Shown here: one piece after another, positions 1 to 64,000 of the stretch
Numbering within the stretch: the first letter of the stretch is position 1
Layout of the letters: every line of letters starts with the position of its first letter
Assembly (NCBI GenBank): GCA_016196035.1
Contig: JACPYM010000111.1
Span: 1 to 64,000 of the forward strand
DNA length: 64,000 nucleotides
Origin: Acidobacteriota bacterium
GTDB taxonomy: Bacteria > Acidobacteriota > Blastocatellia > RBC074
Direction: 5' to 3'
Made by a program: the position numbers and the translations under genes
The notes under the pieces: model-generated
The model's database searches: none
Told to the model about the DNA's origin: nothing
Seen by the model: the letters and a program-made list of their open reading frames with translations, nothing else

Positions 1-444
1 ACGCTGACCTCGATAGGATGTCGCGCGAGGAACTGGTCGAGGAAGTGAAGAAGCTTAGATCGGTTTTCACTTCGGTGTATGGCAAAAGCCGCGCAAGCGG
101 GACAGTACCGCGCGCGTGATAAAGCGGCGCGTTAAGTACGTCTGACTGGCGCAACGCCGAAGCGCCGCTTGCTCACGCGCGCGGTACTGTCCCGGCGCGG
201 CGCGCCTACCGTACACGCAAATGAAAACCGATCTGGGCATGGCATCCGTCAGCATCGCGACAGCTCGCTGCACGAGCTCTGCTGGCACCATCCGGCGCTG
301 TGGGGACTGTTGCCGGAAACGACCGATCCACTTCCGGTTGTGCCAGCTTGGCCGCAGCTCATGCAAGGATGTGTCAAGTATTGGCAATCGCTTGACGAGC
401 AGGCTCCGGCCGCACCCCGAACCAACGAGCCGTATGCGAAGTAA
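1..444 (+). pseudogene. Small conserved protein interrupted by a repeat element
   Basis: Two in-frame pieces flank the repeat at 58-233. The left piece (from at least position 3, with an ATG at 18) reads MSREELVEEVKKL, and the right piece reads GIRQHRDSSLHELCWHH and ends at the TAA at 442-444. Removing 178 bases (58-235: the element plus one copy of its two-base target) joins them as KKLRHGIRQHRD in a single frame. I recall short conserved bacterial proteins of this kind (an SREEL start, then HRDS and CWHHPALWGLLPE) but know no function for them. The gene may begin before the window edge. As it stands, the left reading frame runs into the element and stops there, so the protein is almost certainly not made. 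Confidence 0.75.
58..233 (-). mobile_element. MITE-like element, copy 1
   Basis: 176-bp non-coding element with termini GATCGGTTTTCA / TGAAAACCGATC. Its internal inverted repeat (GGGACAGTACCGCGCGCG and its complement) leads into a second conserved stretch, AGCGGCG / CGCCGCTT. It is flanked by TA on the left and by TG, probably a mutated TA, on the right. Orientation is judged by comparing its arms with copies 3, 5, 8 and 9. It splits the gene at 1-444. Confidence 0.85.
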
Positions 445-7961: not shown

Positions 7962-8030
7962 TAATGCTTCTGTGTAAGTCCTATGTAGTAGAAGGCGCGA
8001 CTGTGCGACTGGTAGCACAGGCCAAGCTTA

Positions 8031-8204
8031 GATCGGTTTGCACTTCGGTGTATGGCAAAAAGCCGCGCCGGGACAGTACCGCGCGCGTGAGCAAGCGGCG
8101 CTTCGGCGTTGCGTCAGTCAGCCGTGCTTGACGCGCCGCTTGCTCACGCGCGCGGTACTGTCCCGGCGCGGCGCGCCTACCGTACACGCAACTGAAAACC
8201 GATC
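8031..8204 (-). mobile_element. MITE-like element, copy 2
   Basis: 174 bp with perfect TA duplication on both sides (8029-8030 and 8205-8206). Termini are GATCGGTTTGCAC / TGAAAACCGATC. The internal stem GGGACAGTACCGCGCGCG pairs with its exact complement near the other end. It sits 49 bases upstream of the short-chain dehydrogenase start. A long reading frame opening inside the element runs into that gene but is not a real N-terminus. Confidence 0.9.
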
Positions 8205-8253
8205 TAAGGCAAGGAAGCGTAACCTTGAACCGCATTTAACCAGAGGAAATTTT

Positions 8254-11388: not shown

Positions 11389-12234
11389 ATGAATACCAAT
11401 GATCTGATTGCGATTGACACCCACGTCCATCTCGAAACCGAACTGGCAGACAACGCCGCCAATGAAGCCGCGCAAAAATACTTCGGCAAAGCCGGCGTAG
11501 GCCGCAATCGCTACGAACTGGCGGAGTATTACCGCGCGCGCAAAATCGGCTGCGTGGTCTTTACCGTGGACGAACGGCTCACGGGGCGTCCGCCGATCCC
11601 GAATGACGAGATCGCGGCCTTCGCGGCAGAGAACTCAGACATCATGTTCGCTTTTGCCAGCGTAGACCCAACGCGCGGCAGGGAAGCTGTCGCTGAAGCC
11701 AAGCGCTTGATTGCGGCGGGCGGCATACGCGGCTTCAAGTTGCATCCGCCGTTGCAACAGTTTCACCCGAACGATCAACGTATTTATCCGTTTTACGAAG
11801 TCATCAACGCGGCCAAGTTGCCGGTGATCTTTCACACCGGCCACAGCGGCATCGGCACGGGGATGCCCGGCGGCGGCGGCGTGCGGTTGAAATACGGCAA
11901 CCCGATGGACATTGACGACGTCGCGGTGGACTTCCCCGACATGCCGATCATCATGGCGCACCCCTCGTTCCCCTGGCAGGACGAGGCCATCTCGGTGTGT
12001 TTGCACAAGCCGCAGGTTTACATTGATCTGTCGGGCTGGTCGCCAAAGTATTTCTCGCCGACGCTGGTGCAATACGCGAACACGCTGCTCAAACGCAAAG
12101 TGCTGTTCGGTTCGGATTATCCGCTGATCGCGCCCGACCGCTGGCTGGCCGATTTCGAGAAGATCGCGATCAAGGACGAAGTGCGTCCGCTGATTCTCAA
12201 AGAGAATGCGCTGCGGCTTTTGGGGTTGACCTAG
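11389..12234 (+). CDS. Amidohydrolase-family (Amidohydro_2) metal enzyme
   Basis: 281 residues. Metal-site motifs in order: DTHVH near the N-terminus, GFKLHPP, FHTGHSG, IIMAHPSFPW, and FGSDYPLI with the catalytic Asp near 243. The family includes decarboxylases and hydratases acting on aromatic acids and their ring-fission products (gamma-resorcylate and oxalomesaconate types), so a role in aromatic acid breakdown fits the neighbours. No signal peptide, hence cytoplasmic. The stop codon is TAG, whose G is the first base of MITE copy 3. Confidence 0.85.
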   Translation: MNTNDLIAIDTHVHLETELADNAANEAAQKYFGKAGVGRNRYELAEYYRARKIGCVVFTVDERLTGRPPIPNDEIAAFAAENSDIMFAFASVDPTRGREAVAEAKRLIAAGGIRGFKLHPPLQQFHPNDQRIYPFYEVINAAKLPVIFHTGHSGIGTGMPGGGGVRLKYGNPMDIDDVAVDFPDMPIIMAHPSFPWQDEAISVCLHKPQVYIDLSGWSPKYFSPTLVQYANTLLKRKVLFGSDYPLIAPDRWLADFEKIAIKDEVRPLILKENALRLLGLT

Positions 12235-12408
12235 AACAGTTTGCAATGGCGGTTGCGGGAGTCAGTTGACGCTGGAACAGTACCGCGCGCGTGAGCAAGC
12301 GGCGTGTCAAGCTGGCACCATTGGCTAAACTGCCAAAGCTCCGCTTGCTCACGCGCGCGGTACTGTCCCGCTGCGCGGTTTTCCCGCACACCGTAGTGAA
12401 AACCGACT
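12234..12408 (+). mobile_element. MITE-like element, copy 3
   Basis: 175 bp. The left terminus is slightly decayed (GAACAGTTTGCAATGGCG); the right terminus is GTGAAAACCGACT. TA precedes the left end (12232-12233) and follows the right end (12409-12410). The TA plus the first element base form the TAG stop of the amidohydrolase. It is nearly identical to copy 5 throughout, including the loop, so one of the two is a recent transposition. The AraC start lies only 17 bases downstream. Confidence 0.9.
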
Positions 12409-23327: not shown

Positions 23328-24177
23328 ACTCACAGCCGCTTCGGCAAAGCCGGCTATAACTTCCTTTCGCGCAGGCTTGATCGGCGCAGGCATACAAGCT
23401 TCGCGTTCGCCGCAGTTGCACGAACAGGAGGCGCGCGCCCAGGGCCTGACGTATTCCTATGAGCTTTTCGACCTCGAACAAATGGGTGCCAGCGTCGCAG
23501 CTTTGCCGCGTTTGCTGGACGAAGCGCAGCAGCAAGGCTTTGCCGGCTTGAACATCACGCATCCGTGCAAGCAGGCGGTCATTTCGCTGCTGGATGAGTT
23601 ATCCGCAGAGGCCGCCGCGATTGGCGCCGTCAACACGGTGGTTTTCAAACACGGCCGGCGCATCGGACATAACACCGATGCGCCGGGCTTTGCCGCCAGC
23701 TTTCAACGCGATCTTGCCGATGTCGCCAAGCGCAACGTAATCTTGCTGGGCGCGGGTGGCGCGGGTTCAGCCGTGGCGGTTGCTGTTTTGCAATTGGGCA
23801 GCGAGCGGTTGGCGATTTACGATACTGATCGCGCGCGCGCCGCTGCGTTGGCTGAACGCGTGGGCGCCACCGCCGTCAGCGAACTCGCGCAAACCGTGCA
23901 AGCGGCTGATGGATTGATTCAGGCGACGCCGATTGGCATGGCGAACTATCCCGGCGTGCCCTTGCCGCTGGCGTTGTTGCAACCCAACCATTGGGTGGCT
24001 GAGATTATTTACTTTCCGCGCGAAACCGAGTTGTTGCGCCACGCCCGTGCCCTTGGCTGCCGCACGCTGGATGGCGGCGGGATGGCGGTGTTTCAAGCGG
24101 CGCGAGCCTTTCAACTATTCACTGATCTGGCGCCTGACGCCGAACGGATGTTGCGGCACTTCGCGGCGCTGGACTAG
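23314..24177 (+). CDS. aroE: Shikimate dehydrogenase-like enzyme
   Basis: 287 residues. The substrate-binding N-terminal half has SRSPQLHEQEA, NITHPCKQAV with the catalytic Lys, and HNTDAPGF with the catalytic Asp. The NAD(P) loop is GAGGAGSA, followed by IYDTD and QATPIGM. The C-terminus LDGGGMAVFQAARAFQLFT is typical. The leader-free start suggests cytoplasm. In a catabolic operon it may act on quinate or shikimate rather than in biosynthesis. The acidic IYDTD strand end favours NAD over NADP. Its TAG stop is completed by MITE copy 4. Confidence 0.85.
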   Translation: MRDTELTAASAKPAITSFRAGLIGAGIQASRSPQLHEQEARAQGLTYSYELFDLEQMGASVAALPRLLDEAQQQGFAGLNITHPCKQAVISLLDELSAEAAAIGAVNTVVFKHGRRIGHNTDAPGFAASFQRDLADVAKRNVILLGAGGAGSAVAVAVLQLGSERLAIYDTDRARAAALAERVGATAVSELAQTVQAADGLIQATPIGMANYPGVPLPLALLQPNHWVAEIIYFPRETELLRHARALGCRTLDGGGMAVFQAARAFQLFTDLAPDAERMLRHFAALD

Positions 24178-24349
24178 ATCGGTTTTCACTTCGGTGTACG
24201 GGAAAACACTGAGCGGCGGGACGGTACCGCGCGCGTCAGCAAGCGGTGTTTGAGCCGTTGAACCACTGGTGCAGCGCCGCTGCGCCGCTTGCTGACGCGC
24301 GCGGTACCGTCCCCACACACTGCCCCGTATACGCAATTGCAAACTGATC
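24177..24349 (-). mobile_element. MITE-like element, copy 4
   Basis: 173 bp with TA on both sides (24175-24176, 24350-24351). Its arms are swapped relative to copies 3, 5, 8 and 9: GATCGGTTTTCACTTCGGTG on the left and CGCAATTGCAAACTGATC on the right. The internal stem has GGTACCG where most copies have AGTACCG, matched by the complementary change on the other arm. It starts within the aroE stop codon. Confidence 0.9.
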
Positions 24350-24405
24350 TAATGCGGCACGCGCGCGCGGTAACGGCCGGCGCGCGCAAACAGGAAATCA
24401 ACACC

Positions 24406-28051: not shown

Positions 28052-28159
28052 CCGCCATTCTGCATTCTCCATTCTGCATTCTCCATTCTTATGCAGAGAC
28101 CGTCTTGATTGAGGTTTACCGCTGTCCGGGAATGGAGAATGCAGAATGGAGAATGACGG
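28052..28159. repeat. Inverted repeat of the CATTCTGCATTCTCC type
   Basis: CCGCCATTCTGCATTCTCC, with a partial tandem second unit, is mirrored by GGAGAATGCAGAATGGAGAATGACGG at 28134-28159. About 110 bp. It lies between the glucosidase and the DUF1932 protein. Confidence 0.75.
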
Positions 28160-30306: not shown

Positions 30307-30361
30307 GAGATTTGGCATTTGAGATTTGAGATTTGAGATTTGTCATTGGTGATGCCGTGCG

Positions 30362-35235: not shown

Positions 35236-36851
35236 TTAACTTTGAAACTTCGCCGGATCGTTACCAGCATTGGAAGCTTCGCGTTGACGGCGCAATCGCT
35301 ACTTTGACGATGGATGTCAACGAAGACGCGACGCTCTTTGACGGCTACAAACTCAAGCTCAATTCCTACGACCTCGGTGTAGACATCGAACTCGCCGATG
35401 CGGTCGAACGGCTGCGTTTTGAATCCCCGCAAGTCCGTGTCGTCGTCGTCACCAGCCTGAAGCCGCGCATCTTCTGTGCGGGCGCGAACATTTACATGCT
35501 GGGTGGTTCGACGCACGCGCACAAGGTCAATTTCTGCAAGTTCACCAACGAAACGCGCTGCGGCATTGAGGACGCCTCGCGCCATTCGGGGCAGCGCTAT
35601 CTCGCAGCGCTGAACGGCACGGCTTCGGGTGGCGGTTACGAACTGGCGCTTGCCTGCGAAGAAATTTATCTGGTGGATGACAGTAATGCAGCAGTGTCGC
35701 TGCCTGAAGTTCCGTTGCTCGGCGTCTTGCCGGGTACGGGCGGGCTGACGCGGCTGGTGGACAAACGCAAAATCCGCCGTGACCGCGCCGATATTTTTTC
35801 TACGCTGGCGGAAGGCCTGAAGGCGAAGCGCGCGAAAGAGTGGGGCTTGATTGACGGATATTTTGCGACGAGCAAATTTGACGAAGCAATTGCCGCGCGA
35901 GCGCGCGAACTTGCGCTTGGCAGTGAGCGGCCGCAAGGGATCAAATTGCATCCGTTGCAAATTGAAAGCACCGCCGCCGCGCGCGCATACCGCTATGTCA
36001 GCTTGCGCTTGCGGCGTGACAAACGTTATGCCGAATTGACGATGCGTGGCCCGGATGCTGGATTGCCGACCGACCCGAACGAAATTCTAAAACTCGGTGA
36101 TGCGTGGTGGCCGCTCGACGCGTTCCGCGAACTGGATAATGCGCTGCTGCATCTGCGCGTCAACGAACCGGAAATCGGCCTGGTGTGTTTGCGCACGTCG
36201 GGTGAGTTGGAAAACGTGCTGGCAATGGATCGTGTGTTGACCGAACAGCGCGGACATTGGCTGGTGCGCGAGACGCGGTTGCTGTTGGCGCGGGCGCTGC
36301 GGCGGCTCGATCTGACGGCAAAAAGTTTCTTCGCGCTGATCGAACCCGGCAGTTGTTTTGCGGGCAGTTTGCTCGAACTCGCGCTCGCGTCTGATCGCAT
36401 GTACATGCTCAACGATCTATCGCGTCCGGTTGAGATTGCGACGAGTGAATTGAACGGAGGCGCATTGCCGATGAGCAATGGCCTGACGCGCTTGCAATCG
36501 CGCTTCCTCGCCACACCGGAGCACGTCGAAGTTGTGTTGCAAGGCGGGCGCTTCGACACCGGAGCCGCTGATGATGCGGGTTTGGTTACGGCTGCGCCGG
36601 ATGGGCTGGACTGGGACGATGAAATCCGGCTGGCGATTGAAGAGCGCACGGCATTGTCGCCCGATGCGTTGACCGGCATGGAGGCGAACTTGCGGTTTGC
36701 CGGTGCAGAAACCTGCGACACTAAAATTTTCGGACGCCTGACCGCGTGGCAAAACTGGATTTTCCAACGCCCCAACACCGTCGGCGAACACGGTGCGCTG
36801 ACCAATTACGGCAAGCCGGCGCAGGCGAAGTTTGATTACCGCCGAACCTAG
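35232..36851 (+). CDS. boxC: Benzoyl-CoA-dihydrodiol lyase (BoxC)
   Basis: 539 residues, near the usual 550. A crotonase-like N-terminal half holds VVTSLKPRIFCAGANIYML, RYLAALNGTASGGGYELALAC, and PEVPLLGVLPGTGGLTRL. A second crotonase-like half contains GSCFAGSLLELALASDRMY. The ending NYGKPAQAKFDYRR is typical. It opens the ring of the 2,3-epoxide/dihydrodiol of benzoyl-CoA, releasing formate. The start overlaps the ligase stop (ATGA). The TAG stop is formed with the first base of MITE copy 5, which separates it from boxB. BoxA is not in the window. Confidence 0.93.
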   Translation: MINFETSPDRYQHWKLRVDGAIATLTMDVNEDATLFDGYKLKLNSYDLGVDIELADAVERLRFESPQVRVVVVTSLKPRIFCAGANIYMLGGSTHAHKVNFCKFTNETRCGIEDASRHSGQRYLAALNGTASGGGYELALACEEIYLVDDSNAAVSLPEVPLLGVLPGTGGLTRLVDKRKIRRDRADIFSTLAEGLKAKRAKEWGLIDGYFATSKFDEAIAARARELALGSERPQGIKLHPLQIESTAAARAYRYVSLRLRRDKRYAELTMRGPDAGLPTDPNEILKLGDAWWPLDAFRELDNALLHLRVNEPEIGLVCLRTSGELENVLAMDRVLTEQRGHWLVRETRLLLARALRRLDLTAKSFFALIEPGSCFAGSLLELALASDRMYMLNDLSRPVEIATSELNGGALPMSNGLTRLQSRFLATPEHVEVVLQGGRFDTGAADDAGLVTAAPDGLDWDDEIRLAIEERTALSPDALTGMEANLRFAGAETCDTKIFGRLTAWQNWIFQRPNTVGEHGALTNYGKPAQAKFDYRRT

Positions 36852-37025
36852 ATCAGTTTGCAATGGCGTATACAGGAGTCAGTTGACGCTGGGACAGTAC
36901 CGCGCGCGTGAGCAAGCGGCGTGTCAAGCTGGCACCATTGGCTAAACTGCCAAAGCTCCGCTTGCTGACGCGCGCGGTACTGTCTCGCTGCGCGGTTTTC
37001 CCGTGCATCGTAGTGAAAACCGATC
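36851..37025 (+). mobile_element. MITE-like element, copy 5
   Basis: 175 bp with perfect TA duplication (36849-36850, 37026-37027). Terminal sequences GATCAGTTTGCAATGGCG and GTAGTGAAAACCGATC. The loop contains a small hairpin TTGGCTAAACTGCCAA shared with copy 3. It begins in the boxC stop codon and intervenes between boxC and boxB. Confidence 0.92.
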
Positions 37026-37156
37026 TAGGTTCGACGGTAGCCTGTCGTCGGTTTCCTGCAAACAAATGTTGCAGGATTTCCAATGGCAACAGATGGCTGG
37101 CGACTGACAAGCGACACCAACAAGCGACAACGGGCGACCGACAACCGACAACCGAT

Positions 37157-38554: not shown

Positions 38555-38625
38555 CGGCCACGTTGGCTGACAAACAGTCTCAGTAGCTCCAAATTTCAGC
38601 TTGTGGCGAAGTGTCGTACTGGGGG

Positions 38626-38723
38626 ACTGATGCCCGGCTCCTGGCTCCTGATTCCTGACAAGCTAAAAATGCTGGCTGATTTTCTGCTGATCAGGAATCA
38701 GGAGCCAGGAGCCAGGCATCAGT
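38626..38723. repeat. Palindromic repeat of the CTGATGCC...GGCATCAG type, intact copy
   Basis: 98 bp. Arms CTGATGCCCGGCTCCTGGC and GCCAGGAGCCAGGCATCAG pair over about 33 bases, with a central TAAAAATGCTGGCTGATTTT. The same unit recurs at 53724-54001, interrupted by MITE copy 8. Confidence 0.85.
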
Positions 38724-38838
38724 TTGAGCTCCACAGGCTTACAGGGCACTTCAATTCTGGAGCTGCTGAGTCCGGCCATCCCCTTTGCAGGCGATGGCCT
38801 GTGACGCTAACAGGCACGCGAGCGCCCGGGAGGGTTTT

Positions 38839-49503: not shown

Positions 49504-49652
49504 ACGGATCCCAAGCAGCGGGACAGTACCGCGCGCGTCAGCCAGCGGCGTGTCACATCTGGCGCACTGGGTCAACGGCGTAGTGCTCCGCTTGCTGACG
49601 CGCGCGGTACTGTCCCGCTGCTACACGCTCTTCCGTACACGCCACTGAAAAC
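49504..49652. mobile_element. MITE-like element, copy 6 (ends truncated)
   Basis: The central part is intact: GGGACAGTACCGCGCGCG to CGCGCGCGGTACTGTCCC, with GCTTGCTGACG and its counterpart TCAGCCAGC. The left outer arm is missing and the right arm ends at CACTGAAAAC without CGATC. It directly follows the PhyH stop. Confidence 0.8.
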
Positions 49653-52874: not shown

Positions 52875-53002
52875 ACGGTACCGCGCGCGTGAGCAAGCGG
52901 AGCCTGAGCTGCCGCACCAGTGCGCCAAACTTGACGCTCCGCTTGCTCACGCGCGCGGTACCGTATCGCTGCACGTTTTTCTCCAAACATTGAAGCGAAA
53001 TC
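52875..53002. mobile_element. MITE-like element, copy 7 (left arm lost, right arm decayed)
   Basis: Starts at the RND stop with ACGGTACCGCGCGCGTGAGC and contains the complementary GCTCACGCGCGCGGTACCGT. The outer left arm is absent; the right arm is degenerate (CATTGAAGCGAAATC) and runs up to the ATG of the next gene, supplying its 5' leader. Confidence 0.8.
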
Positions 53003-53680
53003 ATGACAACAGAAACAATCGCAATCATTGGCGGCACGGGCGACCAGGGTCGCGGCCTGGCGCTGCGCTGGGCCAAAGCCGGTTATGCCATCATCATCGG
53101 CTCACGTGACGCCGCGCGCGCGGCTGCGGCGGCGGAAGAGATGCGCGCCGAACTCGGCGGCGTGCCGAACATCACCGGCTTAGCCAATGCCGAAGCCGCC
53201 GCGCAAGCCGCCATCGTCGTCTTGGCCGTGCCTTTCGCCGCACAAACGCCTACGCTCAAAGGCATCGTGCAGAGCCTGCAGCCCGGCACGTTGCTCGTGG
53301 ATGTCACCGTGCCGCTCGAACCGGCGGTGGGCGGCAAGCCGACGCGGGTGTTGGGCGTGTGGGCCGGTTCCGCTGCTGAACAAACCGCCGAACTCGCGCC
53401 CGCCGGGGTCGAAGTCGTCGCGGCCTTTCACAATGTTGGCGCGGATGCGCTCAGCGCTCTCGCACACGAGGTCGAATGCGACATCCTCGTGTGTGGCGAC
53501 AAGAAAGATGCCAAATTGCGTTTACGTCCGCTGGTCGAAGCCATTCCCGGTTGCCGCTATGTTGACGCGGGGGTGCTCGCCAATGCGCGCATCGTCGAAG
53601 CCATGACCGCGCTGCTCATCGGCGTCAACATTCGCTACAAAACGCACACCGGCATTCGCGTGACCGGGTTGCCCGCCTGA
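53003..53680 (+). CDS. NADPH-dependent F420 reductase-like protein (NpdG family)
   Basis: 225 residues. N-terminal dinucleotide-binding motif IAIIGGTGDQGRGLALRWAK, IGSRD, then VLAVPFAAQTPTLK, LLVDVTVPLEP, AFHNVGADALS, and AGVLANARIVEAMTALLIGVN at the end, matching the NpdG (F420:NADP oxidoreductase) family. Whether it uses F420 or another deazaflavin, or only NADP, cannot be told. No F420 biosynthesis genes are visible here. The 5' leader is made of MITE copy 7, and no typical Shine-Dalgarno is seen. Confidence 0.78.
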   Translation: MTTETIAIIGGTGDQGRGLALRWAKAGYAIIIGSRDAARAAAAAEEMRAELGGVPNITGLANAEAAAQAAIVVLAVPFAAQTPTLKGIVQSLQPGTLLVDVTVPLEPAVGGKPTRVLGVWAGSAAEQTAELAPAGVEVVAAFHNVGADALSALAHEVECDILVCGDKKDAKLRLRPLVEAIPGCRYVDAGVLANARIVEAMTALLIGVNIRYKTHTGIRVTGLPA

Positions 53681-53723
53681 GCAGGGCTTTCGCAAAGTCC
53701 TCAAACCATCCGCCAAAGACCTT

Positions 53724-54001
53724 TGACTGACTCCCGCTTCCTGACTCCTGATTCCTGCTAGACCGGTTTGCAATTGCGTTTACGGGAGCGCGTTGGGCCG
53801 GGACAGTACCGCGCGCGTGAGCAAGCGGCGCGTCAAGTTTACGCCGTTGGCTGAACCGCCCAGGCTCCGCTTGCTGACGCGCGCGGTACTGTCCCGCTGC
53901 GCAACTTTTCCCATCCACCGATGTGAAAACCGATCTAAATTGAAAATCAGCCAGTATTTTCAGTTGAGCAGGAATCAGCAACCGGGCATCAGGAGTCAGT
54001 C
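53724..54001. repeat. Palindromic repeat of the CTGATGCC...GGCATCAG type, split by a MITE
   Basis: Left arm GACTCCTGATTCCTG (to 53757) and right arm CAGGAATCAGCAACCGGGC plus ATCAGGAGTCAG (to 54001) belong to the same palindromic family as 38626-38723. They are separated by MITE copy 8 at 53761-53935. Without it the unit is about 101 bp, matching the intact copy. Confidence 0.8.
53761..53935 (+). mobile_element. MITE-like element, copy 8, inside another repeat
   Basis: 175 bp, perfect TA on both sides (53759-53760, 53936-53937). Termini GACCGGTTTGCAATTGCG and GTGAAAACCGATC. Because the host repeat has a sister copy without the element, the insertion boundaries are fixed to the base. Confidence 0.92.
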
Positions 54002-54194
54002 GAGCCGTTCGAGTGCTCTCGCCGGCGACTTTGCAAAAGCCCCTCCCAGCCTGAGTCAACACCCAGCCCGCACATTGCATTTGCCTCAAGCCGCAGAGAA
54101 TAATGCTGCCCGACCGTGACCGTCGGCAAACTGTGCTTCTTTCGCGTCGCCCTCTCCTGCTTCAGACTCACTGCTAGCATTCAAGGAATTCGTG

Positions 54195-63680: not shown

Positions 63681-63791
63681 GGCCATTGCGTATTCGAAGT
63701 GGCCGACCAGGCGTGCCGTGCGAGTAGAACAATTTGCCAAATCCTCCCACCCACTCGCTTCGCGTACACTGCATTGAAATCCTCCCTCCTA

Positions 63792-63966
63792 AAGCGGTTT
63801 GCAATTGCGTTTATGGAATCGTGTTGTGCCGGGACGGTACCGCGCGCGTGAGCAAGCGGCGCGCCAAGCTTCCGCCCTTGGCCGAGTCGCACAGGCTCCG
63901 CTTGCTCACGCGCGCGGTACCGTCCCGCTGCGCGGCTTTTCCTATACACTGATATGAAAACCGATC
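63792..63966 (+). mobile_element. MITE-like element, copy 9
   Basis: 175 bp. The left terminus is AAGCGGTTTGCAATTGCG after TA (63790-63791); the right terminus ATGAAAACCGATC is followed by TA. The internal stem carries the GGTACCG variant on both arms, as in copies 4 and 7. Confidence 0.9.
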
Positions 63967-64000
63967 TAGTACCGCCGCCGGAAATGGTTCAACCCCCTAA

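Follow-up and report, generated by a model that had tools for sequence, protein, structure and literature searches.

A palindromic repeat in the 64,000-nt stretch of acidobacterial DNA analysed here (the window) is interrupted by a sequence of a different kind. The question raised by this locus is what the inserted sequence is, whether it arrived after the repeat was already in place, and whether the palindrome attracted it. Read from the sequence, the layout is CTGATTCCTG-C-TA-[GACCGG...CCGATC, 175 bp]-TA-AATT-GAAAATCAG. We interpret it with high confidence as a pair of nested non-autonomous transposons, in which one mini-transposon (MITE-B), probably mobilised in trans, lies at a TA inside an older one (MITE-A) and reached that site with no sign that the hairpin carried by the older element was recognised. 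We infer that the insertion site itself has no function. The locus is a clean, internally controlled case, in that transposon ends and target can both be fixed from one nested insertion.

Limits and target of the inserted element

MITE-B occupies 175 bp at 53761–53935 (plus strand), with one copy of the duplicated TA on its left (53759–53760) and one on its right (53936–53937; both plus strand). Many copies of the family have the ends GAyCGGTTTkCA in inverted orientation, and 175 bp is also the modal length, found exactly in 19 of 36 resolved insertions in a 2.78-Mb sample. All 36 have TA on both sides, and the bases outside it are variable; since TA was required when these sites were resolved, its frequency is partly by construction, and the spacing evidence described below is independent of it. 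The window copy taken alone would also allow the duplication to be read as CTA, but across the other copies only TA is constant while its neighbours vary, and we therefore favour TA.

MITE-B is thus short and dispersed, and it has terminal inverted repeats and a target duplication of constant length (TA on both sides, and a single TA at the empty site), the features of a MITE; the TA duplication is also that of IS630/Tc1-mariner elements. Between the ends, an inverted repeat at 53799–53896 forms an internal palindrome (CGGGACAGTACCGCGCGCGTGAGCAAGCGG...) that is also present without MITE-B ends.

The host element and its hairpin

The repeat that received MITE-B is itself mobile. The interrupted copy of MITE-A spans 53682–54044 (plus strand; 363 bp = 186 bp + 177 bp) and is recognised from its terminal repeats and from the 10-bp target duplications of its family. 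A search of the whole genome (9.59 Mb in 139 contigs) for the 18-bp ends CAGGGCTTTTGCAAAGTC / GACTTTGCAAAAGCCCTG, with two mismatches allowed, returns 86 places and 29 inward pairs with a modal span of 186 bp. In the window, the left terminal inverted repeat (CAGGGCTTTCGCAAAGTC) lies at 53682–53699 on the plus strand with one mismatch, and the right one at 54027–54044 on the minus strand with two. Mean flank identity in the family is 0.73 at exactly 10 bp vs 0.24–0.34 at 5–9 and 11–14 bp, and 9–10 of 10 flanking bases are identical in 8 of 15 copies. Because it has 18-bp ends and this sharp 10-bp flank duplication, MITE-A is a mini-transposon. It may resemble ISAs1 or another insertion-sequence family with 8–10 bp duplications. 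The first-pass annotation had called the palindromic repeat unrelated to the inserted element, which is correct for the sequence but misses that the target is a MITE as well.

In the window copy the target duplication is imperfect: its probable left copy (CCCGCCTGAG, 53672–53681, plus strand) agrees with the probable right copy (CCAGCCTGAG, 54046–54055, plus strand) at 9 of 10 positions, and only when one extra base is allowed. The left copy contains the TGA stop codon of the upstream open reading frame at 53003–53680, a predicted gene for what, judged by its sequence, may be an NADPH-dependent F420-reductase-like protein; the best protein matches of this neighbouring gene are from uncultured Acidobacteriota.

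Of the other MITE-A copies, one (C34:75343–75528) had inserted into an array of the heptamer CAGACCT and one (C34:193610–193795) into the middle of a short palindrome (GCTGCCAGCATGCA / TGCATGCTGGCAGC); at C68:75197–75519, the ends are 323 bp apart, 137 bp above the mode, possibly through a further insertion.

MITE-A carries a hairpin of iterated heptamers (CTGATTC, CTGACTC and variants), and an intact copy is predicted to form a single long stem closed by an 8-nt loop. In the window, all on the plus strand, the heptamer-iterated left arm of this inverted repeat occupies 53725–53758 (ending ...CTGACTCCTGATTCCTGC); the upper 10 nt of the same arm (AATTGAAAAT, 53938–53947), severed from it by MITE-B, pair in the fold with 53956–53965; the apical loop (CAGCCAGT) is at 53948–53955; and the right arm, at 53956–54001, is intact. 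MITE-B therefore sits in the left stem, 10 bp below the loop, and not in the loop, where it had been placed in the first-pass annotation. In most intact copies the spacer starts with ACA and has no TA, whereas the window copy and some others have CTA or ATA.

Evidence for the empty site and the order of events

The junction before insertion is expected to be CTGATTCCTGC-TA-AATTGAAAAT. Deleting 177 bp (MITE-B plus one TA) restores the palindromic repeat, and an uninterrupted site elsewhere in the same genome (C35:5879–5908, CTGATTCCTGCTAAATTGAAAATCAGCCAG) is identical to the restored junction over 30 bases. The right arm provides an internal record of the same empty site, matching the left arm at 21 of 23 positions once the 177 bp are removed; over 53956–53978, 177-bp excisions restore 20–21 of 23 matches, and other excision lengths from 165 to 189 bp give at most 19. 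The spacing of the MITE-A ends gives the same length again. Paired ends are 185–186 bp apart in 16 of 27 other host copies (186 bp in 12, 185 bp in 4), and those in the window are 363 = 186 + 177 bp apart; likewise, half-repeat profiles put the gap at 89 bp in each of five copies vs 266 = 89 + 177 bp in the window.

The window sequence, the 30-bp empty site, the opposite arm and the end spacing agree on the element (GACCGG...CCGATC) and the target (TA) that were first proposed, and the end spacing, the C35 site and the intact opposite arm establish that the element entered an already existing repeat, as had also been claimed. The check suggested at that stage, that the spacer of the palindrome be constant, was run on 19 uninterrupted hairpins: 16 have the noted length, three are one base shorter and none is longer, although the search pattern allowed spacers of at most 14 bases and so left out long insertions by design; the terminal-repeat spacing is the independent test. 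In two relatives (L206 and L207), inspection by eye of the sequence that follows the orthologous gene reveals neither repeat, but with about 70% protein identity these relatives are not close enough to be used as an empty locus.

A second hairpin of the same type, uninterrupted, lies at 38626–38723 (45-nt arms, 89% complementary) and had been put forward as the empty-site sister. It does have the same anchors seven bases apart (on the minus strand, ATTCCTG-ATCAGCA-GAAAATCAG), and the hairpin is indeed the same, but it belongs to a different repeat with other ends and is not the best empty site. Full paralogy with the interrupted repeat was rejected because the flanks differ. The larger repeat around it (about 38579–38770) has the ends CTCAGTAGCTCCAAATTT / CAATTCTGGAGCTGCTGAG, different from those of MITE-A; its left flank accompanies other copies of the hairpin as well, while a BLAST query with the right flank matched only itself and the right end was identified by eye at other loci. 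The larger repeat is only a probable second carrier of the hairpin. Rfam microRNA matches at 38626–38723 are sub-threshold and reflect hairpin shape only.

Alternative explanations

The length difference could also be read the other way round, with the long copy ancestral and the 186-bp copies as products of deletion or excision; precise excision at TA could in principle yield the short form. Since the short form is shared by many MITE-A copies that are independent and differ in their flanks, against one copy with the long form, and since MITE-B is also found on its own at numerous unrelated TA sites, we give this explanation almost no credence.

A more substantial alternative is that the MITE-B transposase favours DNA in cruciform or hairpin form, which would make such repeats hot spots, as for some REP-targeting insertion sequences. 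Sites between inverted heptamer arrays or palindromes do exist (C64:135111, C99:24483, C66:31041, C2:152289 and the one in the window), and another copy of MITE-A holds an unrelated TA-flanked MITE at the corresponding TA (C88:130019–130230). Compared with random sites, however, there is no significant excess: with an arm match of at least 13/16 as the criterion, an inverted repeat spans the TA in 4 of 33 intergenic MITE-B insertions vs 147 of 1500 (9.8%) random intergenic TAs (odds ratio 1.27, p = 0.56; intergenic as defined by simple gene calls, with 1752 genes and 82% coding). Folding with local controls likewise gives no excess at MITE-B sites. Any preference for palindromes that the first-pass annotation might imply is not supported, and MITE-B insertions are not concentrated in palindromic repeats in the manner of REP-targeting elements. 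The second case in MITE-A belongs to another TA-flanked family (ends TAGNNTTCAAGAAAA, 73 matches in the genome at no more than one mismatch), whose insertion adds a net 214 bp at the equivalent TA. An intact MITE-A offers only some three TAs, of which two are mirror equivalents, and with so few available, use of the same TA twice is expected and needs no special explanation. A hairpin preference of MITE-B above about 3-fold is unlikely and a smaller one possible; hairpin targeting as the cause of this insertion is improbable, and the landing site looks like chance.

Two of these loci have further features. The interior of the element at C88:130019–130230, too, contains palindromic repeats present elsewhere in the genome. 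At C64:135111–135290, MITE-B lies within a repeat of a further palindromic family (TTCACGCTTTAGCGTG... / ...CACGCTAAAGCGTGAA), for which 16 matches in the sample span the junction.

In the nested-transposon reading, the course of events is as follows. An older 186-bp MITE-A with its heptamer-iterated hairpin landed at the stop codon of the predicted gene. Later the 175-bp MITE-B entered the left side of the hairpin stem at a TA and duplicated that TA, a site open to it because this host copy has CTA where most MITE-A copies have ACA. Mobilisation would have been in trans, and the transposase was probably of the IS630/Tc1-mariner type.

Copy number, spread and origin of MITE-B

MITE-B is present in high copy number. 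In its own genome, 40 relatives were scored among 416 first-look candidates (about 400 candidate places), and in the 2.78-Mb sample the family occupies 119 places (about 43 per Mb), of which 48 are near full length (about 40%). Six more copies are located in the window (55–234, 8028–8207, 12231–12406, 24174–24351, 36848–37027 and 63790–63968), where the density is about 2–3 times the genome-sample average.

The search for an autonomous partner gave four hits in the same genome to PF13358, an IS630-type transposase domain, with no paired MITE-B ends around them in the loci examined there, and no autonomous parent (the same ends with a DDE transposase) in the 2.78-Mb sample. Pairs of MITE-B ends 0.7–2 kb apart were considered as autonomous elements and rejected: they enclose ordinary genes, and only the MITE sequence is common to the pairs.

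MITE-B is a short end pair around a palindrome that also occurs alone, with 21 solo copies in the 2.78-Mb sample. In the window, the palindrome is found without complete MITE ends at 49515–49652 and 52875–52972, the latter immediately behind an RND-type efflux gene. Among 38 genomes searched, near-full MITE-B was found only in its own, whereas the palindrome is also present in several family members. Because of this distribution, MITE-B probably acquired an already existing palindrome and then spread inside its own lineage.

Period-7 arrays and heptamer hairpins

The hairpin of MITE-A belongs to a genome in which tandem arrays of period 7 are strikingly frequent. A simple scan of the 2.78-Mb sample, with approximate counts, gives 194 such arrays. 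Each of the other periods between 5 and 13 is represented by 1–24 arrays, and period 15 by 14; the 124 arrays of period 14 are a harmonic of period 7. About two thirds of the period-7 arrays are outside predicted genes. They are built from many unrelated heptamers, and at least 56 have an inverted partner downstream, often giving long, nearly perfect hairpins. Three such arrays are in the window (28055–28155, 30309–30350 and 38689–38717). The (GTCAGTG)n hairpin type is present in this genome and in none of 37 relatives.

One possible generalisation, which we would sooner doubt than accept, is that heptamer hairpins are a general, sequence-independent class of repeat here and that, with other palindromes, they have repeatedly been taken as cargo by unrelated MITEs. 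If so, mini-transposons would be vehicles for structured repeats. Because its many hairpins differ in heptamer but agree in period, this genome could offer a way to test how period-7 repeats originate.

Comparison with known systems

Insertion of one MITE into another is a known and ordinary kind of event, and the abundance of heptamer hairpins is the more interesting by-product of this analysis. Our literature searches on acidobacterial MITEs returned nothing specific, and no description of the MITE families defined here was found in the literature searched. Like bacterial MITEs derived from Tc1/mariner-IS630 elements, MITE-B is short and non-coding, with terminal inverted repeats, a duplicated TA, high copy number and a mostly intergenic location; unlike them, it has an interior palindrome that also exists alone, and the search described above gave no autonomous parent. 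The small dispersed repeats of Nostoc described by Elhai et al. in 2008 are reportedly nested in heptamer arrays and minitransposons; the nesting in tandem heptamers is alike, but their size (said to be 21–27 nt) and mechanism differ.

Some insertion sequences show specific insertion into, or preference for, REP palindromes (Tobes and Pareja 2006, PMC1525189). MITE-B shares with these the position of a mobile element within a dispersed intergenic palindrome, but differs in having no excess over random intergenic TAs. Heptamers that form hairpins are known from the P6b stem of the Nostoc tRNA-Leu intron, where degenerate heptanucleotide repeats pair, the length varies with heptamer number, and some genotypes have extra sequence inserted (PMC3488679); that case concerns one intron stem, whereas the heptamers here are dispersed, of many unrelated sequences and in some cases carried by MITEs. 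In Xanthomonas and Nostoc, period-7 arrays of heptameric simple repeats are enriched in intergenic regions, and some form convergent inverted pairs, but they are mainly G-rich single motifs (PMC4692102), in contrast to the many unrelated heptamers found here in one genome.
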